DNA from: Thiomicrorhabdus sp. Kp2
Lineage (GTDB): Bacteria > Pseudomonadota > Gammaproteobacteria > Thiomicrospirales > Thiomicrospiraceae
NCBI RefSeq assembly: GCF_000478585.1
Contig: NZ_ARWI01000001.1
Span: 496,001 to 560,000 of the forward strand
Reading direction: 5' to 3'
DNA length: 64,000 nucleotides
The translations under genes were made by a program, and so were the position numbers. Below the pieces are notes generated by a model that saw only the letters and a program-made list of their open reading frames with translations, did no database searches and was not told the origin of the DNA. This document shows positions 49,683 to 63,651 of the stretch, one piece after another (the stretch's first letter is position 1; each line of letters opens with the position of its first letter).

Positions 49683-50271
49683 GAACTTTTTATTCTTTTT
49701 ATTAAACTAAATTGATTTTAAATACCCAAAAGACCATTCGAGCGATTCTGATTAGAGTTTTAATCAAGAAAACAGATTTAATATTTTTTTGAAAAGTTAT
49801 CTTTAAGAGATTGATGAATACAAACCACTGAGTGAGACCCGTTATGATTAAAAGCTACGATTTATACATTAAGAATAGATTGCGATTTATATAAGACAAT
49901 AAAAACTACATACAGATAATTCGGTAATTTTTTTAGAGCGTGCTTGCACCATGAATTGAATCTTGGCGTAGACAGTCAAGAGTTTGATTTGAAGCGAATT
50001 TAGAAAAATGATTTCCCAATTATTGTCGTCTAAGCAATCCCACCCTTAACACCTATACAAGATATAAAATATTTAACATTTTATTTGACAAAACTTATAC
50101 AAAATAATAAAGTTAAATCGTGGTTATTGCTAACTAACCTCAACTATCGGGGGGTGAAAAAATAACAAGCATTACAACACTTGTTAAAAATTTAGCTTAC
50201 AACTAAATTTTCGCTCTCCACTCTTTTTCTTGTCGCTTTAATGGCCACCATTCATCGAGTCACGGTTAAAT
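49683..50271. other. 589-bp gene-free, A/T-rich region
   Basis: No credible gene. A plus-strand TTGACA (50085-50090) with TAAAGT 17 bp later (50108-50113) may be a promoter for the hydrolase or a small RNA. A weak hairpin AACAAG...CTTGTT lies near 50165-50186. A 16-codon open frame near 49843 lacks support. No CAGGCCTG copy is present here. Confidence 0.4.
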
Positions 50272-51267
50272 ATGAATCCATTTCTAATTGTGTTTTTGGG
50301 GTTGCTGCTCTTAGCAAATCAGAGTATTGCTTCATTTCATACACCCAAAATACTCCATGCTTCTGGTGGCTTTTTCTATCATGAAACTCTCCCTAATAGC
50401 CTTGCTAGCCAATATTCGAGTGTGACCATTCAACTTAGAACCTCAAATGAGAGAAAAAACAGTAAAAAAGCTATCTTTATACTGGGCGGAGGCCCAGGTT
50501 TTAGCAGTTGGAACCTTGAACCAATTCAGAAAAATATAGCCAATCTAGGTCATCCCGTTTATTTAATGGACATGCTCGGCATTGGAGAAAACAACTTTAC
50601 CAGGCCTGGTAAAGTGCTTGAAAGCTGGGTTAAGCAAATTCACCAACTCAAGTCTGAAGTATCACCCAATCATCAAGTGATTTTGGTTGCCCACTCTTGG
50701 GGTGCATTAATGGCCATGCTTTACACCCGTAATTACAAGGATGATGTGGCCAAAATTATTTTATTAAACCCCGTTGATCCGCAAAAAAAGGCGATGGAAA
50801 ATCTGACCGATGAAATCCATAACCGCAACAGCCAAGAGGTTGTGGTTCAATGGGATGATGAGCAGGCCTGGGAAAATCAAACCACAATAGCACAAGAGGA
50901 TATTGAGCACATTACCTTGCGCCAAATTCAGCAGGTATTACCCACCTATTTTTTAGATTATGAACAAGGTAAAAAATACGCTGCACAATTTACTGTGAAC
51001 GATTTTGACATAGACCTCAATATCCAGGCCTGGCAAGAGTATGACAGCAACCCTATTCAATTTTCTGAAATCCCCACCTGGCAGAAACCTATTCATTTTT
51101 TAGAGTGCAAACAAGACTATCTCATGCCATATAATCTAAATGCTATGCAACCTAATATAAAGTTAACCTCGGTTGATATCATTGACCAATGCGGGCATTT
51201 TCCGTGGCTTGAACAACCCCAAACATTCTATGAATTACTTGGTCACTACTTAAATGAACAAATTTAA
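50272..51267 (+). CDS. exported alpha/beta hydrolase
   Basis: Alpha/beta hydrolase with a signal peptide (first 20 residues, ending near SIAS). 331 residues. Seen: oxyanion region LGGGPGFSSW, the nucleophile elbow HSWGALMAM with its serine, and the catalytic histidine in QCGHFPWLEQP. Close to the proline iminopeptidase branch, but substrate unknown. Three CAGGCCTG copies (50601, 50863, 51025) crowd this gene. Its stop overlaps the next gene by 14 bp. Confidence 0.82.
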   Translation: MNPFLIVFLGLLLLANQSIASFHTPKILHASGGFFYHETLPNSLASQYSSVTIQLRTSNERKNSKKAIFILGGGPGFSSWNLEPIQKNIANLGHPVYLMDMLGIGENNFTRPGKVLESWVKQIHQLKSEVSPNHQVILVAHSWGALMAMLYTRNYKDDVAKIILLNPVDPQKKAMENLTDEIHNRNSQEVVVQWDDEQAWENQTTIAQEDIEHITLRQIQQVLPTYFLDYEQGKKYAAQFTVNDFDIDLNIQAWQEYDSNPIQFSEIPTWQKPIHFLECKQDYLMPYNLNAMQPNIKLTSVDIIDQCGHFPWLEQPQTFYELLGHYLNEQI

Positions 51268-53256: not shown

Positions 53257-54066
53257 TTACGCGGCCTTTTTAGGAAACAGTCTTTGGCTTAACACTTCGT
53301 AAGAGCCGTAGATGGCAAAATTGTATTCGACCGATAAATTCATCCCTTCTTTGGCGTATTTACGAATGTTCTCTAAATTAAAAATATAAGGCTTATTACT
53401 TCCTGTACTGGCAACCCACTGCCATGAAAAATTGTTGGATGCGAGGTTGCCATCAATTAAGTGGCTCAGCATCCAACGCGCACCAACTTGCCATTTCACC
53501 CTACGCCAATGCACAATGTATGACGCTAGATAGAGTCTTGCATGATTATGTAAATACCCTGTCTTTCTAAGCTCTTGGATAAAATCATTAATCACCGCTA
53601 CATTGGTGGTGGCGCTCAAAATATCGCTAGGTAAATAGTCGGCATAATCCTCGTGCTTAAAGCCTGTTTTATACTCTTCAAGGTTTTCCCAAATCCCCTC
53701 TGGGTTTTCATAGTATTTTTTCTGGTAAAAGTCACGCCAACTTAACTGTTGTAAAAAGTCATAGGCCTGCATGCGCTCTTGCTGAGAGTCGATGTATTTT
53801 AAAACCTCAGAGGGGTCAACCAAACCATGCTCAATGTAAGGCGAGAGCATTGAGATTGAACCAGCCAAGTAGTTGCGGGTTTTGGCATATTTTTTTACGT
53901 CTAAATTTTGCAGTTTTTCTTGAGCCTGCGCGATACCGCCCTCAAGAGGTGATGGCATAAAATCTTGCTCTTCTAAGATCCAGTCCTGAAAACGTTTGTA
54001 GGCTGTTTTTCCTAAAAGTTGCACTGGATGAAACTGCCCTGTTAATGATTGTTCATAAAACTTCAT
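53257..54066 (-). CDS. split photolyase-like protein: FAD-binding C-terminal half
   Basis: A 269-residue protein holding just the helical FAD domain of the photolyase/cryptochrome family. Seen: RNYLAGSISMLSPYIEHG, QLSWRDFYQKKY, ELRKTGYLHNHARLYLAS, VHWRRVKWQVGARWMLSH and NNFSWQWVASTGSNKPYIFN. The whole antenna domain found in normal 450-500 residue photolyases is missing and follows as a separate gene. Repair or photosensing role unknown; in Pseudomonas putida a cryptochrome-like gene is light-induced. Confidence 0.85.
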   Translation of the reverse strand: MKFYEQSLTGQFHPVQLLGKTAYKRFQDWILEEQDFMPSPLEGGIAQAQEKLQNLDVKKYAKTRNYLAGSISMLSPYIEHGLVDPSEVLKYIDSQQERMQAYDFLQQLSWRDFYQKKYYENPEGIWENLEEYKTGFKHEDYADYLPSDILSATTNVAVINDFIQELRKTGYLHNHARLYLASYIVHWRRVKWQVGARWMLSHLIDGNLASNNFSWQWVASTGSNKPYIFNLENIRKYAKEGMNLSVEYNFAIYGSYEVLSQRLFPKKAA

Positions 54067-54087: not shown

Positions 54088-54960
54088 TTAATATTGTTCT
54101 GTTTTTGGACTTAATAAATCGCTTAAAGCCTTTTTAACTTGAGAAAACTCAAATTCAAACCCCGACTCTGTAAGACGTTTAGGCAAAATAGCTGAAGAAT
54201 GCGTGAGCACCTGAGCACCTTCACCAAACATTAATTTGAGTTGCCATAACGGTAGCGGAATCAGATAAGGTCGATGTAATGTCTTGGCTAAAGCACGTCC
54301 AAATTCATCATTACTTAAAGGAACTGGTGCGGTTAGGTTAAATACACCCTGTAACTCTTCATGGGTCATTAAAAACTCAATCGCTCTCACTAAATCTTTG
54401 ATATGAATCCACGAAAAACATTGTCTACCGCCTGCAACGGGGCCACCTAAACCCAATTTAAATGGCGGTAACATTTTGGCTAAGGCTCCGCCATTTGTAC
54501 CCAGAACAACACCAAACCGCATAACAGTGGGTTTGGGTGAAAGTTGGTTATTTTGATTTTCCCAAGCTTTACCTAGTTCTGCTAAAAAGTTATTACCATA
54601 AAGAGTGACAGTTTCATCAATGGGGTTTTGACAGCTGTTTTCTGGGTAGATACCAATAGCGGAAGCCACCAAAATACGTTTTGGCTTCTGATTACACAAA
54701 TCAATTGCCTCTTTTAACTTTTTACTGGTTTCTACTCGGCTGGCTATTAATTTCTGTTTGTAGGATTCTGACCATCGTTTGCCAATGTTTTCACCTGTTA
54801 AATTAATCACAATGTCTTGACCATTTACCGCATTTTGCAACTCGACAGTATCGTCAAATACCGAACGACCAAATGCAACAACGTGATGCCCTTGAGCCAT
54901 TAAATGGGTTTTAAGGTGAGAACCAATAAACCCTGTACCCCCCAAAATTAACACTCTCAT
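54088..54960 (-). CDS. TIGR01777-family epimerase (YfcH-like)
   Basis: NAD-dependent epimerase-fold protein of unknown reaction. The ATG at 54960 has AAGGAG six bases upstream, so this start (290 aa) is preferred over an in-frame ATG 24 bp earlier. Seen: LILGGTGFIGSHLKTHL, INLTGENI, RFGVVLGTNGGALAKMLPPF and FSWIHIKDLVRAIEFL, family hallmarks. It leads an operon with the split photolyase genes and follows TTATACA direct repeats. Confidence 0.88.
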   Translation of the reverse strand: MRVLILGGTGFIGSHLKTHLMAQGHHVVAFGRSVFDDTVELQNAVNGQDIVINLTGENIGKRWSESYKQKLIASRVETSKKLKEAIDLCNQKPKRILVASAIGIYPENSCQNPIDETVTLYGNNFLAELGKAWENQNNQLSPKPTVMRFGVVLGTNGGALAKMLPPFKLGLGGPVAGGRQCFSWIHIKDLVRAIEFLMTHEELQGVFNLTAPVPLSNDEFGRALAKTLHRPYLIPLPLWQLKLMFGEGAQVLTHSSAILPKRLTESGFEFEFSQVKKALSDLLSPKTEQY

Positions 54961-54987
54961 AGCAATCTCCTTGCTGCTAATCAAAAC

Positions 54988-55037
54988 TTATACATTAATT
55001 ATACAAAATTAAACAGTGTTACGTAATTATTTATACA
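54988..55037. promoter_or_regulatory. 11-bp-phased direct repeats upstream of the YfcH/photolyase operon
   Basis: TTATACA at 54988-54994 and 54999-55005, exactly 11 bp apart, and again at 55031-55037, 32 bp further on. The minus strand of the second copy contains TATAAT (55003-54998), so the repeats overlap a -10. CarH/LitR-type MerR regulators use 11-bp repeats of this kind. A similar pair precedes rudS. Confidence 0.55.
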
Positions 55038-55100
55038 GACTTTGCCCCTAACTTTTTAACTAATATGCCTTAATCTCTTTAAAACATTATGTTAGGCAAT

Positions 55101-55161
55101 AAAAAAGCCCACTTACCTATTTTAAAATGCTATTGAGCAATCTAAAAACAGATAAGCAGGC
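55101..55161 (-). terminator. hemH terminator built from half a CAGGCCTG copy
   Basis: On the minus strand a 17-bp stem with four G-U pairs joins 55161-55145 to 55123-55107, a 21-nt loop between, then six T (55106-55101). The 5' arm begins with the right half of CAGGCCTG (55157-55164). The rest of 55038-55240 has nothing else. Confidence 0.65.
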
Positions 55162-55240
55162 CTGGTAGGTTCAATAAAAATGTTAAAAGAGAAAAACAAA
55201 CTTTTTATTAAGCAAAAAACCATCTCAAACAGTTAGTTAC

Positions 55241-56341
55241 TTAGTTACTTGCCCCTAACTTTTTTGCGTTTTCTTTAACCTTAGCTAAGTCTTCCTCTGC
55301 AACGATAACATCCCAACCTTGTAGGTGTTGCAGAACTAAGTCGCCTAACGCTTGGCTGTGGTCAGCTCGGTCATTTAGACATTTGATGTAACCAAACTTC
55401 TCGCCCCCCGCCTCTTCAAAATATTCACGGTTTTCTTCACCAATCTCTTCTATGGTTTCTAAACAATCGGCTGAGAAACCAGGGCAAATCACCTGAATGT
55501 TTTTCACTCCTTCTTTAGGCAAAGCCATCATGGTCTCATCGGTATAAGGTTGTACCCAAGGCTCTTTACCAAAACGAGACTGAAAGGTGACTTTATACTC
55601 ATCCTTACTTAAACCCAGTTTTTCTGCCACTAAGCGTGAGGTTAAGTGACACTGACAAGGGTAAGAATCGCCATTATCCCAATAGCGTTGTGGAATGCCG
55701 TGGTACGACATCACCAATAAATCTGGCTTACCGTGCTCCGCCTGGTACTCAGTTATTGAATTGGCTAAGGCGTCAATATAACCTGGATGACGATAATAAC
55801 TGGTAATGGTGCGCATCTCTGGCACCCAACGCCAGGCTTTTAGCTCTTCATTCACCGCATCAAAAGTCGAGGCCGTAGTCGCTCCTGCATATTGAGGGTA
55901 CAGCGGTAAAACCAAAATCTTTTGGCAACCTTTGGCTTGTAAATTTTGCAGTGCCGAGGCTATGGATGGGTTGCCGTAACGCATCCCCAGTTCGAATTCG
56001 ATCTCAGTATTAATGTGAGGTTTGACATGCTCAGCAATCGCATCAATCTGTCTTTTAGAAATATTAAGTAATGGCGCTCCAGGCCCCTCTGAATCCCAAA
56101 CCGTTTGATAGGCTTCTGCCGACTTAGCAGGCCTGGTATTTAAAATAATGCCATTTAAAATTAATTTCCATAACCAACGTGCTGGTGGTGGTTCAACCAC
56201 TCGTGGATCGGAGAGAAACTCTTTAAGATAAGGTTTTAACGCTTCTTTAGTTGGCGCATCAGGTGTACCTAAATTGGTAATTAACACACCAATTTTTGAA
56301 GCATCACCATGTTGATAATTTGTATAAGACTTATAAAACAT
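55241..56341 (-). CDS. hemH: ferrochelatase
   Basis: Inserts iron into protoporphyrin IX, last haem step. 366 residues. Seen: GVLITNLGTPDAPT, LSDPRVVEPP, SYHGIPQRYWDNGDSY with the active histidine, QSRFGKEPW, and CPGFSADCLETIEEI. CAGGCCTG at 56128-56135. Located inside the light region, sensible because porphyrins are photosensitisers, but it could also be chance. Confidence 0.96.
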   Translation of the reverse strand: MFYKSYTNYQHGDASKIGVLITNLGTPDAPTKEALKPYLKEFLSDPRVVEPPPARWLWKLILNGIILNTRPAKSAEAYQTVWDSEGPGAPLLNISKRQIDAIAEHVKPHINTEIEFELGMRYGNPSIASALQNLQAKGCQKILVLPLYPQYAGATTASTFDAVNEELKAWRWVPEMRTITSYYRHPGYIDALANSITEYQAEHGKPDLLVMSYHGIPQRYWDNGDSYPCQCHLTSRLVAEKLGLSKDEYKVTFQSRFGKEPWVQPYTDETMMALPKEGVKNIQVICPGFSADCLETIEEIGEENREYFEEAGGEKFGYIKCLNDRADHSQALGDLVLQHLQGWDVIVAEEDLAKVKENAKKLGASN

Positions 56342-56419
56342 AAGGGTTTCCGTTTCTTTTAATTAATATTCAATCGCATTTAATTCATTTAAATACGTGA
56401 CAACCATTCAAGACGCTAG

Positions 56420-56953
56420 CTAACTCTCTTGGAGCTTTTTCAAATCAGCCATCACTTCTCTAACATGTTCTTTAGGGTTAACATCTCGGTAAATTTTGGC
56501 AATTCTACCTTCTTTATCAATAATAAAGCTGTGACGTTTGGCAAACTTAACCACTTTTAAATCAAGAACCGCATTATATTGTTTGGCCACGATGGCATTT
56601 TCATCCGCCAATAAAGAAAAAGGCAGCTTATATTTCTTTGAAAAGGCTTGATGACTCTCTTTATTATCAACCGACACCCCTAAAATAACCGCTTGTTGGG
56701 CAATTAGCTTATTGATATTATCTCTAAAGCTACAGGCCTCCGTCGTACAACCTGGCGTATCGTTTTTTGGGTAAAAATAGAGTACAACCCATTTACCCTG
56801 CTGTGAATGTAATGACACTCCTTCACCGTGCTGATTAATCAGTTCAAAGTCAGGTGCTTTATCCCCTATTTTCAGCTCAGAAGCTTGTGCTTGGCTACTC
56901 ACCATAAAAATGGATGACAAGCCAAAATAAATTGTGACTAGAAGTTTATTCAT
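56420..56953 (-). CDS. exported Bcp/PrxQ-type peroxiredoxin
   Basis: Thiol peroxidase of the Bcp class with an unusual signal peptide (hydrophobic 5-20, cleavage near AQAS), so periplasmic. 177 residues. Seen: KAPDFELINQHGEGVSL, YFYPKNDTPGCTTEACSF with peroxidatic Cys69 and resolving Cys74, and GVSVDNKESHQAF. Divergent from rudS, sharing its promoter region. Confidence 0.9.
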   Translation of the reverse strand: MNKLLVTIYFGLSSIFMVSSQAQASELKIGDKAPDFELINQHGEGVSLHSQQGKWVVLYFYPKNDTPGCTTEACSFRDNINKLIAQQAVILGVSVDNKESHQAFSKKYKLPFSLLADENAIVAKQYNAVLDLKVVKFAKRHSFIIDKEGRIAKIYRDVNPKEHVREVMADLKKLQES

Positions 56954-57024
56954 AGCGCTATATCCTATGTATTATTCTTTGAGAAAACAAACTCAATTTA
57001 AAACATTAATGAATTGAACTCTCT

Positions 57025-57053
57025 TTGTATAACTATTGTACAATATATATAAC
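57025..57053 (+). promoter_or_regulatory. promoter of rudS overlapped by an 11-bp direct repeat
   Basis: -35 TTGTAT (57025-57030), 17-bp spacer, -10 TATAAC (57048-57053). Direct repeats TTGTATA (57025-57031) and TTGTACA (57036-57042), exactly 11 bp apart, cover the -35 and spacer, as expected for a CarH/LitR-type repressor site. Confidence 0.6.
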
Positions 57054-57088: not shown

Positions 57089-58063
57089 ATGGAATTTCCA
57101 AGAATTAGAATTGCAGTATCTGATTGTCTTAGAGGTACAGAGTGCCGTTATAACGGTGGTCATGCACAAGACGATTTTGTAAATCATCACTTGGCAAAAT
57201 ACGCTGATTTCTACCCTTTCTGCCCTGAAGCCGCTGTTTTAGGTACACCTCGTGAAACCATACGTTTAGTCGGTATTAATAACCAAGTACGTGTCATTGG
57301 TCCAAAATCGAATACCGATTACACCGATGGCCTACAAGCTTATAACGATAAAATAGTCCCTAAGTTAGCCGCTAAAAAAATGGATGGTGCTGTCGTTAAG
57401 TCACGCTCGCCAAGCTGTGGGTTGGAACGTATAAAAGTCTATCAACCTTCGGGTGAATGGCATGGTTCAAAAGATCCAATGCAGTCGGGGTTATTTACGC
57501 ACGACCTTCGCCAAGCGATGCCTACTATTGCCATAGAGGAAGAAGGCAGATTGTCTGACGCTTGGCTACGTGAAAACTTTATGGTGCACGTTTTTACCTC
57601 CGCTCGCTGGAGAGAGTTTTTGGAGTCTGACCCTACACTAGCGCAATTTCAAGCGTTTCATAGAGATCACAAATATTTATTTCTCTCCAAAAACGAAGAG
57701 ATTTATAGAGAGATGGGCGCTTTAGTGGCCACTACCCGTAAGTTTAACTTAACAGAAAGTATGCTGGGCTATGAACGCAAGCTGTTTGAGTTATTAGCTT
57801 ATCGCTCAAAAAAAGGCGCCGTTAAAAATGTGTTAGAGCATATTTACGGCTACTTTAAAAAACAGATCACTGAGGCTGAAAAAGAACTTTTTCATGAAGC
57901 CGTTGATGAGTTTATGCAAGACATCGTACCACTTATTGCCGTCATCAAAATTCTAGAACAGTTTTTAAGCCACTACGGTTCAGATTATTTGCAGTCACAA
58001 GTTTTCTTTCACCCTTACCCTGCTGACTTAGCTTTAAGGTCAAAGGTAACCGCGTATAGATAA
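57089..58063 (+). CDS. rudS: RudS-like tRNA 4-thiouridine desulfidase (DUF523-DUF1722)
   Basis: 324 residues: N-terminal DUF523/TudS desulfidase domain (about 1-150) with Cys13, Cys19, Cys45 and Cys110 (SPSCGLE) able to hold a [4Fe-4S] cluster, and C-terminal DUF1722 (about 190-310; FHRDHKYLFLSKN). This fusion is the RudS family, shown to remove the near-UV-sensitive s4U from tRNA and ease UVA growth delay. GGGAG precedes the ATG. Its promoter carries the repeat of the light regulator, so light protection fits well. Confidence 0.85.
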   Translation: MEFPRIRIAVSDCLRGTECRYNGGHAQDDFVNHHLAKYADFYPFCPEAAVLGTPRETIRLVGINNQVRVIGPKSNTDYTDGLQAYNDKIVPKLAAKKMDGAVVKSRSPSCGLERIKVYQPSGEWHGSKDPMQSGLFTHDLRQAMPTIAIEEEGRLSDAWLRENFMVHVFTSARWREFLESDPTLAQFQAFHRDHKYLFLSKNEEIYREMGALVATTRKFNLTESMLGYERKLFELLAYRSKKGAVKNVLEHIYGYFKKQITEAEKELFHEAVDEFMQDIVPLIAVIKILEQFLSHYGSDYLQSQVFFHPYPADLALRSKVTAYR

Positions 58064-58166: not shown

Positions 58167-58625
58167 ATGAAAGATCCTAAATTAAGAACAAACCTACTGC
58201 TTCAATTAGTCGAAAACGCCCAAGAAGGTATTGTGGTTGCTGAAAAAGAGGGACATGACACGATTCTGATTTATGTAAACCCTGCTTTTGAACGTTTAAC
58301 AGGCTATTCATCTGAAGAGATTCTTTATCAAGACTGTCGATTTTTACAGGGCGAAGACACCAAACAAGAGTCAATAAAAATTATCCGTAATGCCATTGAT
58401 GACTCGAACCCTGTAAGAACAATCTTAAAAAACTACCGTAAAGATGGCTCTATTTTTTGGAATGAGTTGAGCGTTACTCCTTACTACGATGAAGTAGATC
58501 AACTGACCTATTACATTGGTATTCAAAAAGATGTGACTGAAGAAGTCACTTTACAAGAAGCCTTAGATAGCGCAAATCAAAAAATTGCTCAGTTAGAGTC
58601 TGAAATACAATCTCTAAAAAAATAA
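58167..58625 (+). CDS. short LOV blue-light photoreceptor
   Basis: 152 residues: a single PAS/LOV domain with no effector domain, ending in a coiled-coil-like helix (LDSANQKIAQLESEIQSLKK). Seen: the photoactive Cys57 in YQDCRFLQGEDT, VNPAFERLTGYSSEEIL and YRKDGSIFWNELSVTPYYD, and YYIGIQKDVTEEV. Matches the Pseudomonas putida SB1/SB2-LOV type, which is needed there for light-induced gene expression with LitR-like regulators. Convergent with such a regulator. Confidence 0.92.
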   Translation: MKDPKLRTNLLLQLVENAQEGIVVAEKEGHDTILIYVNPAFERLTGYSSEEILYQDCRFLQGEDTKQESIKIIRNAIDDSNPVRTILKNYRKDGSIFWNELSVTPYYDEVDQLTYYIGIQKDVTEEVTLQEALDSANQKIAQLESEIQSLKK

Positions 58626-58722: not shown

Positions 58723-59574
58723 CTATATTCGAGTGAAGTTTTGAATATTGTAAAGTGAGCAATTTACTTTAGAATCCAGCTGTGTCTGCAATGAACCATC
58801 TAAAAAGAAGTGGGTAACAACACCAGGGTTTTTATCAGCCCATTGACTCCAGAAATTCTCATCAAAGACTTTAGTATCAGAAACCAACGCTAAAGCATTG
58901 CAGTTCAGACCATCAAGTACCGAAGCCAACTCTTTGTAATTTTGCTCTGCGTAAATCGAGTAAAAATTAACAAATGGATAGTACCCTTTAACCGCCATCG
59001 CTAAGGCCGCCAAAAGTTGAACCGTTTGCGGTGTACCTGGTTGCGACTCTACCCATATGGTCTTTTCTGTTTTGGGTGAAAGAGAACGCATGGCAAAACG
59101 CATACGGGTTTGCAGTCTTGGAATTAACTGAGACTCCCAAAAAATAAAGCCTGAACGCGACTCTTTTTTCAGTTTTTTGGTCACAGAACTTAATACAGGT
59201 AACCAATAAAGCTCGGCTAAATCATTGAAAAGATTATCTAACTCTTGGTTTAAATGTTCGGCATCGAAAGAAAAAGCGTACTCCATTAAACGGTTTTGAA
59301 AATCAGACTCGCCAGCATTAAAATCAATCTTTTTGGTATTGGCTTTTTCATCTAACAACGCTTTAACTTGGCTAATTGCAACACCTTGCTCTGTTAGGTT
59401 AACCGCATCCTTAATAAGATCAACGTGCGCTTGAGTATAAAGCCTATGCCCACCTTCTGTTCTAACAGGTTCAATAAGCCCATAGCGTCTTTCCCACGCT
59501 CTTAAGGTAATAGAATTAACCCCAGTTAAATTGGATACTTCTCTAATTGGGTAAAGTGCTTCGCTAATTGGCAT
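58723..59574 (-). CDS. CarH/LitR-like MerR regulator without the B12 histidine
   Basis: MerR-type HTH (about 7-50, LYPIREVSNLTGVNSITLRA and RRYGLIEP, GGHRLYT), then a helical domain and a C-terminal Rossmann-like domain as in light sensors CarH/LitR. The residues where the cobalamin His should be (D/E-x-H-x-x-G) read PGTPQTVQ (about 179-186), so B12 sensing is unlikely. Start taken at ATG 59574 (283 aa) after AAGAGA; an ATG 11 codons earlier is possible. Probably cotranscribed with phrB. Confidence 0.85.
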   Translation of the reverse strand: MPISEALYPIREVSNLTGVNSITLRAWERRYGLIEPVRTEGGHRLYTQAHVDLIKDAVNLTEQGVAISQVKALLDEKANTKKIDFNAGESDFQNRLMEYAFSFDAEHLNQELDNLFNDLAELYWLPVLSSVTKKLKKESRSGFIFWESQLIPRLQTRMRFAMRSLSPKTEKTIWVESQPGTPQTVQLLAALAMAVKGYYPFVNFYSIYAEQNYKELASVLDGLNCNALALVSDTKVFDENFWSQWADKNPGVVTHFFLDGSLQTQLDSKVNCSLYNIQNFTRI

Positions 59575-59688
59575 ATTTCTCTTTTCAAACATTATGGGGT
59601 TGAGCATTGTTTCTCAAACCGACTCGACTTTATTTAATAAAGTTCAATAGATTGTGCATATATTAGACAAAAAGCTATACCAAAGCAA

Positions 59689-61155
59689 TTAAGCATTGTT
59701 TGGCATCTGCGGTCTATTCACTTTCATTTCATTCACTCTCGCCAGGTGCGCTTCTCGGCTCTGCTTTAAATCAACCAAGGGCTTGGGGTAGTGCTCCCCC
59801 AAAACAATCCTTTTCATCTCACATTCCATTTTATGCGCCCAAGGTTCATGTATCGCTTTATTTGATAAAGTTTTAAGCTCTGGCAACCAACGTTTAATGT
59901 ATTCACCCTCTTTATCAAACTTTTGGCTTTGGGTTACGGGGTTAAATAAACGGTAATAAGGGGCGGCATCTACTCCGCAACCTGCAACCCACTGCCAGCC
60001 CATAACATTATTGGCTGGGTCGGCATCCAACAGCGTGTTATCAAACCACTTTTTACCCAGTAACCAGTGTTGATTTAAATTTTTGGTTAAAAAAGAGGCC
60101 ACCAGCATACGAACTCGGTTGTGCATAATACCCGTTTCCCAGAGTTCTCGCATACCCGCATCAATGATTGGAATCCCTGTTTGTCCAGTTTGCCAACGAT
60201 TTACAAAGTAGGCATCATACGGCCACTTTACCTCTAAATACTTTTTTTGAAATGGCTCCGCTTCGGTCTCAGGAAACCAGTGCAGTAGATGACGAGCAAA
60301 CTCTTTCCAAACCAATTGACGTAACCAAGGTTGAGCAATATCCGCTTTAAGTTCACCTTGTTCAACCCGTGTTTGCACATAAAAATAGATGGCGCGAATG
60401 GAAATCTCACCGTAATGCAAATAACTTGATAAGGTACTGGTTGCCATGATTGCAGGAAAATCTCGGTCGCTTGAGTAATCCACCATCTCTTCTTCTATAA
60501 ACTTCTGCAAGGTTTGCCAGGCGGCTTTCTCGCCCACTTGCCAATGTGCCAAAATCTTTTTTGCCCAAGGCTGTGCAAGAATATTTTGTAATGTAGAGGG
60601 TAAGTTAGCATACGCTTTTGGCAGAGTTACCAGGCCTGCTAACTTTAATTGTTGCTGATATTGTTTTACATCATCAAGCGCCTCTATTTGAAACTGTTTG
60701 CTTAAAAAGTTTTTATAAAAAGGTGTGTAAACCAAATAGGCTCTATTTTGTTTATTGAGCATACTGTCAGGCTCAAGTAAAAATTCAGTGTAAAACGGGG
60801 TTAAAGCGACCTTTTGCCCTTTACATACTTCTAAGGCGGTTTGTTGCATCTGTGCAAATGGCGAACCTACTTGATAACTGTAATAAACTTGTTGAATATT
60901 CTGTTCGGTAATTAAGCGAAATAAACTTTCTTGAAAATCCCCTTCTATCATCCATAAATCAGCGGAATGGATTTTTAGAGTTTCTTTAAAGGAGAGTAAG
61001 CTTTGTGCCAACCAAGCACTGTTGGCCTCGCCAATAACCTGCGATTCGTCATGGAAATAGGCCAAAATTACTTTGTCAGAAGACTCTAGCGCAGCTTGAA
61101 TCACTGGCGCATGATCTACTCTGAATTCTCGTTGTATCCAAACTAATGTTGTCAT
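59689..61155 (-). CDS. phrB: deoxyribodipyrimidine photolyase (class I CPD type)
   Basis: Light-driven repair of cyclobutane dimers. 488 residues: N-terminal antenna domain (TLVWIQREFRVDHAPVI) and FAD domain with WKEFARHLLHWF, GQTGIPIIDAGMRELWETG, IMHNRVRMLVASFLTKN and DADPANNVMGWQWVAGCG. FAD and substrate residues of the class are visible. Distinct from the split protein at 52.8-54.1 kb. 81 bp precede merR on the same strand. CAGGCCTG at 60631-60638. Confidence 0.94.
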   Translation of the reverse strand: MTTLVWIQREFRVDHAPVIQAALESSDKVILAYFHDESQVIGEANSAWLAQSLLSFKETLKIHSADLWMIEGDFQESLFRLITEQNIQQVYYSYQVGSPFAQMQQTALEVCKGQKVALTPFYTEFLLEPDSMLNKQNRAYLVYTPFYKNFLSKQFQIEALDDVKQYQQQLKLAGLVTLPKAYANLPSTLQNILAQPWAKKILAHWQVGEKAAWQTLQKFIEEEMVDYSSDRDFPAIMATSTLSSYLHYGEISIRAIYFYVQTRVEQGELKADIAQPWLRQLVWKEFARHLLHWFPETEAEPFQKKYLEVKWPYDAYFVNRWQTGQTGIPIIDAGMRELWETGIMHNRVRMLVASFLTKNLNQHWLLGKKWFDNTLLDADPANNVMGWQWVAGCGVDAAPYYRLFNPVTQSQKFDKEGEYIKRWLPELKTLSNKAIHEPWAHKMECEMKRIVLGEHYPKPLVDLKQSREAHLARVNEMKVNRPQMPNNA

Positions 61156-61211: not shown

Positions 61212-61853
61212 TTAACTCTCTTTTAACAGAGCTTCTTTTAAACTCATTGACAAAGGGTTTTGTCCCAACCAAATACCAAAATAGAGCGATTTAAAGCCTG
61301 GTACATCGGTACTAAACACGGTTTGGCCATTTAGGTTAAGTTGTGTTGTTTGTTCTTTTGCTAAATAAACCAAGGCGTAACAATCCCCCTTATTCACAGT
61401 TTGATAATGGCTATGAAGCCGATTCACCTGCTGTTGTAATGGCTCAGGCAGTTCTGTGGGCAAAACATGGTTGGCTCCTTCAATAAACTGCTTTGGGGTG
61501 ACCTCTCTTTGATAACAGAGTTCCAGTTTTAATGGCATCTTCTCAGAAAGCAATTCGTCAACCGTGTAATTTTTATGGGCACTTTTTTGCTCAAGCAAAA
61601 GGGTCGCTTGATAAACATCAAACCACATCCAACGCGCCACGCCTTGAGAGTATTTAAACCACTCAATAGATTGGCTTGCGTTATTCAGTGTTGTCTCTTT
61701 AATAACATCTGCATTAGCCTGGTTAACCATATTAGCAAAACTAGAAAAGCTAGCCGCCATTAAGAGTACACAATAGCCTAGATAGCGCGGGGGTAATTTT
61801 TTAGCTAACACGGTTTGAAGTAATAAATCGATGTAATACATACCGTTTACCAC
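61212..61853 (-). CDS. exported chalcone isomerase-like protein
   Basis: 213 residues with an N-terminal hydrophobic segment (LGYCVLLMAASFSSFA) and a CHI-like domain (GVARWMWFDVYQATLLL, YQREVTPKQFIEGAN, VFSTDVPGFKSLYFGIWLG). Lipid-binding or fatty-acid role in the family; exact activity unknown. Start either GTG at 61853 next to the previous stop, or ATG at 61841. Constant neighbour of DUF3833, cfa and phrB in light/singlet-oxygen regulons. Confidence 0.83.
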   Translation of the reverse strand: MVNGMYYIDLLLQTVLAKKLPPRYLGYCVLLMAASFSSFANMVNQANADVIKETTLNNASQSIEWFKYSQGVARWMWFDVYQATLLLEQKSAHKNYTVDELLSEKMPLKLELCYQREVTPKQFIEGANHVLPTELPEPLQQQVNRLHSHYQTVNKGDCYALVYLAKEQTTQLNLNGQTVFSTDVPGFKSLYFGIWLGQNPLSMSLKEALLKES

Positions 61854-62420
61854 TTATTCTGTAATAGGCTGTTTACTAAAGAACAGCGTGACTTGACCCA
61901 CCGTAAAGCCCCATTTTGTCACTTTTGCAACATTCATCATGGTGTTATGGGTATGCAAAAACATCCAGTCATCAAAATTCACCTGAATGGTGCTGTCTTG
62001 ATAAGGCAAATCTAACACATAGCGCCAATTTAAGGCATTACCTGCAGACTGTCCAAACGCTTCACCCACTACGTCATCAGCCAGGCCTGTAAAGTGGTTA
62101 GGGCTTGTTTCGGTAATTTTCCAAACACGCTGCTGTTTTTCGCCATCATCATAAATAAAGCGTTCATCTAGGGTTAACAACGGTTGTTCTTGCGGGGTTA
62201 CTGTGCCCGTAATATCCACCGTAAAACGCCTAATGACTTTACCTGAACGGTCTTGAAACTGCCCCCAGGCATAAGTTTTACCAGAGAAAAAATCAAATAA
62301 CTTTAATTCAGGTTTGTTACCCGCATAGTCATTCACATTGATTGAACTGCATCCATTTATCAAAAATAGAGAGAGGCTTAATGCCAGTAATTTAAGAGGT
62401 TTGCTCGCGCTATTTAACAT
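61854..62420 (-). CDS. DUF3833 lipoprotein
   Basis: 188 residues with lipobox INGC and lipidated Cys24. Seen: KTYAWGQFQDRSGKVIRRFTVDITG, LTLDERFIYDDGE, NHFTGLADDVVGEAFG and ALNWRYVLDLP. Function unknown. Overlaps cfa by 11 bp and is followed at once by the CHI-like gene, so the three are translationally linked. CAGGCCTG at 62082-62089. Confidence 0.88.
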   Translation of the reverse strand: MLNSASKPLKLLALSLSLFLINGCSSINVNDYAGNKPELKLFDFFSGKTYAWGQFQDRSGKVIRRFTVDITGTVTPQEQPLLTLDERFIYDDGEKQQRVWKITETSPNHFTGLADDVVGEAFGQSAGNALNWRYVLDLPYQDSTIQVNFDDWMFLHTHNTMMNVAKVTKWGFTVGQVTLFFSKQPITE

Positions 62421-63651
62421 CAGAAATGGCCTCTACTTTTTTTAGAGTCAGTTGATGAACGGAGATATGCTGAGTTTCAAAACCCACTGCACAATAATCC
62501 AAATAATAGTTCCACATTTTTTGGAATTTTTGATCATAACCTTTCTGTTTTAGCTCTACGCTATTGTCATTAAAGGCTTCTTTCCACAGCAAGCAGGTTT
62601 TGGCATAGTCATAACCAAACTCATATAAATTAGTAAGTTCAAAGCCATGTTTTTTGGCTAATGATTTTAATTGTTCAACACTTGGCAATAAGCCACCTGG
62701 AAAAATATAGGTTTGTATAAAATCAACACTCGATTGATACTCTTGGGCGTATTGTTCATTTATGGTAATAACTTGTAGCGCTGCATTACCGCCCAATTTT
62801 AGGCTGTTACTTAACGTTTGAAAATAGGTATTCCAGTACTCTTTACCCACCGCTTCAAACATCTCAATGCTCACAATGTGGTCATATTGATGGATTTCAT
62901 GGCGATAATCTTGGTAAGCCACTTCGTAGTCATCTTTATAAAATCGGTTCAATCTTTGTTGTGTATAGAGCTGCTGCTCTTTAGAGAGAGTTAAGCCCTT
63001 CACTTTGACTTTTTTCTCCAGCAAGGCCTCCATCATGCCTCCCCAACCACAACCAATCTCTAGCACTTCATCACCAGCTTTAACATTCAGCTGCTCAACT
63101 AATCGTGCATATTTTTGCTGTTGGGCTTGTTCAAGAGTGTCATCAGAAGCTTCGAAAATACCGCTGGAATAGCTCATGGTTTTGTCGAGCCACTTCTGAT
63201 AAAAAACATTGCCTAAATCGTAGTGATAAGAGATGTTCTTTTTACTGTTATGTTCAGAGTTATGGCGTTTGCGGTGCTTAACTAAATGCAACTTATTGAG
63301 TGTTTTATGAGACAACAACCCTGCTAAAGCTTGTTGGTTTTCATAGCCTAAATGCATAAGTGAATAGAGTGAGCGGGTATCAATGGCATGTTCAAAATAA
63401 GCTTGCGCAAAGCCCAGCTCACCCTGGGTTTTCATTAGCCAATAGGCTCTAAAAGGTTTTAAGATAATTAAGTCAGCATGTCTGCCCGCTTGTTGCCCTT
63501 CAAAACGGTAGGTTTCACCAAATAAATCAAGTGTTAAAGAGCCTTTTTGCAATTTATCAAATGGCAGTTTAAGCACCCACTGTTTGATTGAAAAAGGGGT
63601 AAATAATTTGCTAATAAAACTTTGACGTGGATCGGATACACTTTTTAACAT
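62410..63651 (-). CDS. cfa: cyclopropane-fatty-acyl-phospholipid synthase-like methyltransferase
   Basis: SAM-dependent methyltransferase acting on unsaturated membrane lipids. 413 residues. Seen: SYHYDLGNVFYQKWLD, TMSYSSGIFE, EVLEIGCGWGGMMEALLE (SAM motif), VSIEMFEAVG and YIFPGGLLPSVEQL. In Rhodobacter and Pseudomonas related enzymes (UfaM) start furan fatty acid synthesis against singlet oxygen; by sequence I cannot tell this from cyclopropane formation. Start overlaps DUF1365 by 7 bp. Confidence 0.92.
   Translation of the reverse strand: MLKSVSDPRQSFISKLFTPFSIKQWVLKLPFDKLQKGSLTLDLFGETYRFEGQQAGRHADLIILKPFRAYWLMKTQGELGFAQAYFEHAIDTRSLYSLMHLGYENQQALAGLLSHKTLNKLHLVKHRKRHNSEHNSKKNISYHYDLGNVFYQKWLDKTMSYSSGIFEASDDTLEQAQQQKYARLVEQLNVKAGDEVLEIGCGWGGMMEALLEKKVKVKGLTLSKEQQLYTQQRLNRFYKDDYEVAYQDYRHEIHQYDHIVSIEMFEAVGKEYWNTYFQTLSNSLKLGGNAALQVITINEQYAQEYQSSVDFIQTYIFPGGLLPSVEQLKSLAKKHGFELTNLYEFGYDYAKTCLLWKEAFNDNSVELKQKGYDQKFQKMWNYYLDYCAVGFETQHISVHQLTLKKVEAISDVK

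Follow-up and report, generated by a model that had tools for sequence, protein, structure and literature searches.

Genes and repeats at the locus

The analysed window comprises 64 kb (positions 496001-560000) of the 2.73-Mb, single-contig genome of Thiomicrorhabdus sp. Kp2. It carries the following genes and putative regulatory elements, given in window coordinates; the last element lies beyond the window end.

50085..50101, +, putative operator 3, TTGACA-aaact-TATACA, upstream of the alpha/beta hydrolase gene; TnnACA repeats 11 bp apart, first unit -35-like
50272..51267, +, alpha/beta hydrolase
53257..54066, -, photolyase-like FAD-domain protein (PF03441)
54088..54960, -, yfcH (NAD epimerase, DUF1731)
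54989..55005, +, putative operator 2, TATACA-ttaat-TATACA, upstream of yfcH and the photolyase-like gene; second-best site of the genome, also in yfcH promoters of relatives
55032..55037, +, TATACA, candidate accessory half-site 32 bp from operator 2; the closest relative (L038) has a copy at a distance of 31 bp
55241..56341, -, hemH (ferrochelatase)
56420..56953, -, peroxiredoxin (AhpC/TSA)
57026..57042, -, putative operator 1, TGTACA-atagt-TATACA, direct repeat of 11-bp period in the region separating rudS (+) from peroxiredoxin-hemH (-); best site of the genome in the held-out model, kept upstream of rudS in relatives
57089..58063, +, rudS (thiouracil desulfurase and DUF1722)
58167..58625, +, short LOV protein, DCRFL motif with Cys57; in almost all relatives having LOV it adjoins the MerR gene
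58723..59607, -, MerR/LitR-type regulator, CarH-like predicted fold, without W-x9-EH or ExHxxG B12 motifs
59689..61155, -, DNA photolyase
61212..63651, -, chalcone-isomerase-like, DUF3833 and cyclopropane-synthase-like genes of the DUF1365/FAD-oxidase operon
L005:2865-2881, putative operator 4, TATACA-aaaat-AATACA (one mismatch), DUF1365/FAD-oxidase promoter

Upstream of the photolyase gene lie the chalcone-isomerase-like, DUF3833, cyclopropane-synthase-like and DUF1365 genes and an FAD oxidoreductase gene, with a divergent SDR-NTF2-MFS set. The preliminary description had proposed a shared operator composed of TTRTAYA words. All copies it named were found (TTGTATA at 57025, TTGTACA at 57036, TTATACA at 54988, 54999 and 55031), and the pairs 57025/57036 and 54988/54999 are exactly 11 bp apart, as it had claimed. 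The window contains TTRTAYA-N4-TTRTAYA twice, compared to 0.02 expected, and two matches were obtained in none of 400 shuffles. Since single TTRTAYA words are in no excess over chance in the window (53 compared to 57 expected), the signal is the 11-bp pairing and not the word. The half-site itself had to be revised: it is better read as TRTACA, which agrees with the TnnACA of CarH operators and is arranged as a direct tandem with an 11-bp period. This reading puts the 57025 repeat on the minus strand and the 54988 repeat on the plus strand, antisense to yfcH. The former is located within a divergent promoter and could serve the peroxiredoxin-hemH genes besides rudS. A sigma-70 scan detected no confident -10/-35 elements at either of these two sites.

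Operator 3 is additional to the sites described before, and is likely a further regulon promoter driving the alpha/beta hydrolase gene at 50272; the pair is also found in the orthologous hydrolase promoters of three relatives (G007, G024, G026). Its -35-like TTGACA unit agrees with TnnACA and parallels the TTGACA within DR4 of the Myxococcus operator (PMC9304148).

Across the genome, TTRTAYA-N4-TTRTAYA matches three places, and the refined pattern TRTACA-nWAnY-TRTACA exactly two, both of them the sites reported before. As the refined pattern had in part been built from the sites it scores, a held-out sequence model, built on 33 sites with this genome and its closest relative excluded and run genome-wide, provides a cleaner test. 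It ranked 57024-57045 first, 54987-55008 second, the hydrolase promoter (50088-50104) fifth and the DUF1365/FAD-oxidase promoter sixth. Four of the six top sites are located inside a 16-kb stretch of the 2.73 Mb, with a chance probability of about 2e-8 for this stretch, bounded post hoc, and of about 4e-6 when the whole 64-kb window is taken as the bound. The pattern-pair scan that had been proposed returned light and stress genes, as predicted, and the site expected at the start of the DUF1365 operon outside the window exists, albeit with one mismatch. The model site of rank 4 (1424233) was rejected as a regulon member, no regulon link being seen. Rank 3, which is also the third place matched by TTRTAYA-N4-TTRTAYA (G000:C1:1196440, L006:6000-6020), precedes a PAS chemoreceptor gene; it fails the refined pattern and was set aside as weak. 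An 11-bp pair near a PAS-MCP chemoreceptor gene was seen in one other genome (L175:4001); in neither case do the orthologues carry the pair, which points to chance or a lineage-specific feature.

Conservation and orientation of the repeats

The 20-kb loci of relatives contain the same gene module. In front of rudS, relatives have largely kept the core TTGTAYAACTATTGTAYAAT, at a varying distance from the start codon, and 11-bp pairs also occur in the FAD-oxidase/SDR and yfcH promoters of relatives (for yfcH in 6 of 9 promoters, our own included). Among 43 promoters from three gene sets, 28 TRTAYA pairs were spaced by 11 bp compared to 0.08 expected from Markov resampling, an enrichment of about 350-fold, with smaller secondary peaks at 20-23 and 31-34 bp. 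Only two pairs were spaced by 18 bp, both in rudS promoters (window and closest relative). Control sequence of 442 kb from the same loci held six 11-bp pairs, most of them upstream of regulon-type genes.

The refined pattern yielded 53 sites, distributed over 23 of the 24 MerR-bearing genomes, and 3 sites among the 13 genomes without detected MerR, while its reversed control gave no match in the 37 genomes. Two of the three exceptional sites belong to an 83% complete genome (G002), which carries the FAD-oxidase/SDR cluster with operator and whose MerR gene may be absent merely from the assembly. Read manually, some 50 of the 56 sites are upstream of one small gene set, comprising FAD-oxidase/SDR, rudS/peroxiredoxin/LOV, yfcH/photolyase-like, hemH, ovoA, alpha/beta hydrolase, photolyase and DUF2189 genes, also in cases in which hemH or ovoA is not linked to the cluster. 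Some promoters, including our own DUF1365 promoter, have only one perfect unit. The operator before ovoA (ovothiol synthase) was seen in relatives at seven loci (L211, L223, L225, L226, L229, L290, L291), and our own ovoA promoter (L216) shows no clear pair. Likewise, the operator precedes a DUF2189 membrane-protein gene at L040:16715, L041:1758, L042:2269 and L174:4001, suggesting an uncharacterised light-response gene.

TATACA and TGTATA half-sites can be oriented, in contrast to the palindromic TGTACA. In a table of 48 11-bp pairs, with a few common rudS/hemH sites counted twice, all 30 orientable pairs were direct and none inverted, the other 18 not being orientable. Together with the 11-bp enrichment, this computationally bears out the CarH-like grammar of 11-bp direct repeats that had been proposed for the shared operator, and the repeats are, as judged from their sequence, a genuine operator-like element. 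The aligned sites read TRTACA-AWANY-TRTACA, in agreement with the CarH unit nnnnTnnACAn (PMC9304148), the TnnACA form following from the search pattern and not being an independent result. In a comparison set, mostly Pseudomonas, obtained by a contig search with MerR alignment, all five orientable 18-bp pairs were inverted, matching the PplR1/PmlR2 consensus (PMC9758184), and all eight orientable 11-bp pairs were direct, the latter originating from Thiomicrospira-type loci and from loci whose MerR has B12 motifs. Inverted half-sites 20-21 bp apart were seen in the FAD-oxidase promoters of L049, L050 and L059 and the yfcH promoters of L046 and L047, some alongside direct pairs, and perhaps represent an intermediate or a second binding mode.

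The linked MerR regulator and LOV protein

Across genomes the 11-bp element tracks the MerR-LOV module, and it is present at the merR and LOV operon promoters. The pair was found in the hemH promoters of 15 of 23 genomes with MerR, four of these sites being the common rudS/hemH element, compared to 0 of 11 genomes without MerR (Fisher p=5e-4). On a HemH tree the MerR label and the pair label each need about five changes, so that the association reflects neither a single clade nor fully independent events; the presence/absence contrast is partly due to shared ancestry. Second, unlinked hemH copies had the pair in 0 of 5 cases. In the five relatives with two hemH genes (L252-L257 versus L275-L279), the rudS-adjacent copy carries it in four, as if the copies were split into a light-induced and a housekeeping ferrochelatase. 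The genomes without MerR have no close short LOV or yfcH either. One locus (L045, genome G018) combines a MerR homologue and a photolyase with no LOV hit in the part of the locus covered, and no refined operator genome-wide.

The regulator has the winged helix of the LitR/CarH group (RAWERRYG...RT..GHRLY) and a CarH-like C-terminal domain, and its AlphaFold model (pLDDT 87) matched full-length Thermus CarH best (Foldseek E 1.5e-11). It contains neither the W-x9-EH nor the ExHxxG B12-binding motif, both of which are present in the B12-type homologues L091, L096, L130, L138 and L140. The missing motifs refute membership in class I LitR/CarH. A short LOV gene encoding a photoactive-type cysteine (Cys57) adjoins the regulator gene, as is the case for class II LitR. 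LitR classes are defined by C-terminal-domain trees (PMC9758184), and our MerR is at most a candidate member of class II.

With its best-studied relatives, the Pseudomonas class II proteins PmlR2 and PplR1, the system shares a MerR lacking B12 motifs and adjoining a short LOV gene, the half-site T(G/A)TACA, and photolyase and rudS among the linked genes. Identity to these proteins is about 30% overall and highest in the DNA-binding domain; compared to them, the C-terminal domain of our MerR is predicted to have both the helical and the alpha/beta CarH-like parts. The preliminary description gave the P. putida PplR1 site as the same half-sites with wider spacing. Spacing does differ, and so does orientation: the PplR1/PmlR2 consensus T(G/A)TACA-N12-TGTA(C/T)A has inverted half-sites 18 bp apart (PMC9758184), whereas the Thiomicrorhabdus pairs are direct and 11 bp apart. 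The suggested variant code is thereby computationally supported, the inverted N12 operator being a known property of two class II members and not part of the class definition.

CarH proteins (class I LitR of Thermus, Bacillus and myxobacteria) bind tandem 11-bp direct repeats nnnnTnnACAn overlapping promoter elements (PMC9304148). Our system resembles them in its tandem 11-bp direct repeats (30 of 30 orientable), an operator sequence of CarH type, and in the full-length predicted fold. It differs in having mostly two repeats of TRTACA instead of three to five of any TnnACA, and in a regulator without the B12 motifs of the adenosylcobalamin light sensor CarH, the LOV protein being the likely sensor. 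The Myxococcus CarH paralogue CarA acts independently of B12 on the same operator, from which a separate protein frees it in the light (PMC9304148). Its anti-repressor CarS, unlike the partner proposed here, is not a LOV photoreceptor.

Proposed light switch and alternative explanations

We observed the element, the direction of its repeats, its conservation, its regulon and its joint occurrence with the regulator; in our view these are very probably best explained by a LOV-gated, B12-free CarH/LitR repressor acting on CarH-type tandem operators. The repeats would be operators of the regulator encoded at 58723-59607. In the dark, this CarH homologue would bind the tandem TRTACA-AWANY-TRTACA repeats and block RNA polymerase at the promoters of rudS-LOV/peroxiredoxin-hemH, yfcH-photolyase, the DUF1365/FAD-oxidase-photolyase-merR operon, its divergent SDR operon and the alpha/beta hydrolase gene. 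In blue light, the short LOV protein encoded next to it would form a flavin-cysteine adduct, then bind the regulator and release it from DNA, turning on genes for photorepair, tRNA s4U removal, haem synthesis and lipid modification. Dark binding, repression and release by lit LOV are inferred from the CarH, CarA and PmlR2 precedents; LOV anti-repression of a LitR has been demonstrated in P. mendocina (PMC9758184). The system would thus work like the sensor and logic of PmlR2-LOV combined with the operator grammar of CarH. Such a CarH-like tandem form perhaps binds as head-to-tail dimers or tetramers that are broken up by the LOV protein.

That the sites are operators of light and stress genes belonging to another transcription factor, with the MerR linkage arising by chance, is unlikely. 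Sites at hemH and ovoA frequently lie away from merR, and G018 has a MerR homologue without a refined site, as this reading would allow, but the half-site agrees with CarH TnnACA and overlaps that of PplR1/PmlR2, and the element follows the MerR-LOV module across genomes and is present at the promoters of the merR and LOV operons. Quite unlikely, too, is a classical activator. Outside the LitR/CarH group, the MerR proteins that have been characterised mostly activate by twisting a long-spacer promoter, and ours could do the same. However, tandem direct repeats are not the dyad of such activators, and the relatives CarH, CarA and PmlR2 repress (PMC9304148, PMC9758184).

We consider it very unlikely that the regulator reads an inverted repeat like Pseudomonas PplR1/PmlR2 and that the direct 11-bp spacing is incidental. 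TGTACA is palindromic, leaving 18 of 48 pairs without orientation, and inverted half-sites at a spacing of 20-21 bp occur in a few promoters; against this, every orientable 11-bp pair is direct, inverted pairs at 18 bp are all but missing here, and the inverted 18-bp pairs (5 of 5 orientable) belong to the mostly-Pseudomonas comparison set. An origin by chance, or as the usual promoter boxes of AT-rich DNA, is extremely improbable: although TTGTATA resembles -10/-35 elements and single words occur at chance frequency, this explanation is already contradicted by the spacing enrichment and the genome pattern scan, with sites concentrated on one gene set and none for the reversed pattern in the 37 genomes.

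The LOV-gated repressor would join two known light switches, CarH operator grammar and LOV control, in one natural system; a literature search of limited reach found no paper that treats LOV, MerR, photolyase and Thiomicrospira together. Apparently this LitR, having lost B12 sensing, retained the tandem operator and acquired LOV gating. In its Pseudomonas counterparts the geometry changed, so that control of operator spacing by the C-terminal domain becomes directly testable by domain swaps. Whether B12-free, LOV-gated LitR proteins use one reading head and half-site in two geometries, tandem direct at 11 bp and inverted at 18 bp in Pseudomonas, with the C-terminal domain setting the code, we judge to be evenly balanced.

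In Thiomicrorhabdus and relatives the 11-bp-spaced word, with a period of one helical turn, marks promoters of light-damage genes, and is probably the target that a B12-free CarH relative paired with a blue-light sensor protein would bind. It delimits a small light regulon of chemolithoautotrophic sulfur oxidisers, made up of rudS, hemH, ovoA, photolyases and the DUF1365 operon, and the refined pattern is a means of finding this regulon elsewhere. Thiomicrospira-like merR-LOV-DUF1365 clusters with an 11-bp pair were seen in a Denitrificimonas (Pseudomonadaceae) and in a gammaproteobacterial MAG (loci L074 and L075), a possible case of horizontal transfer of the regulator plus its operators.
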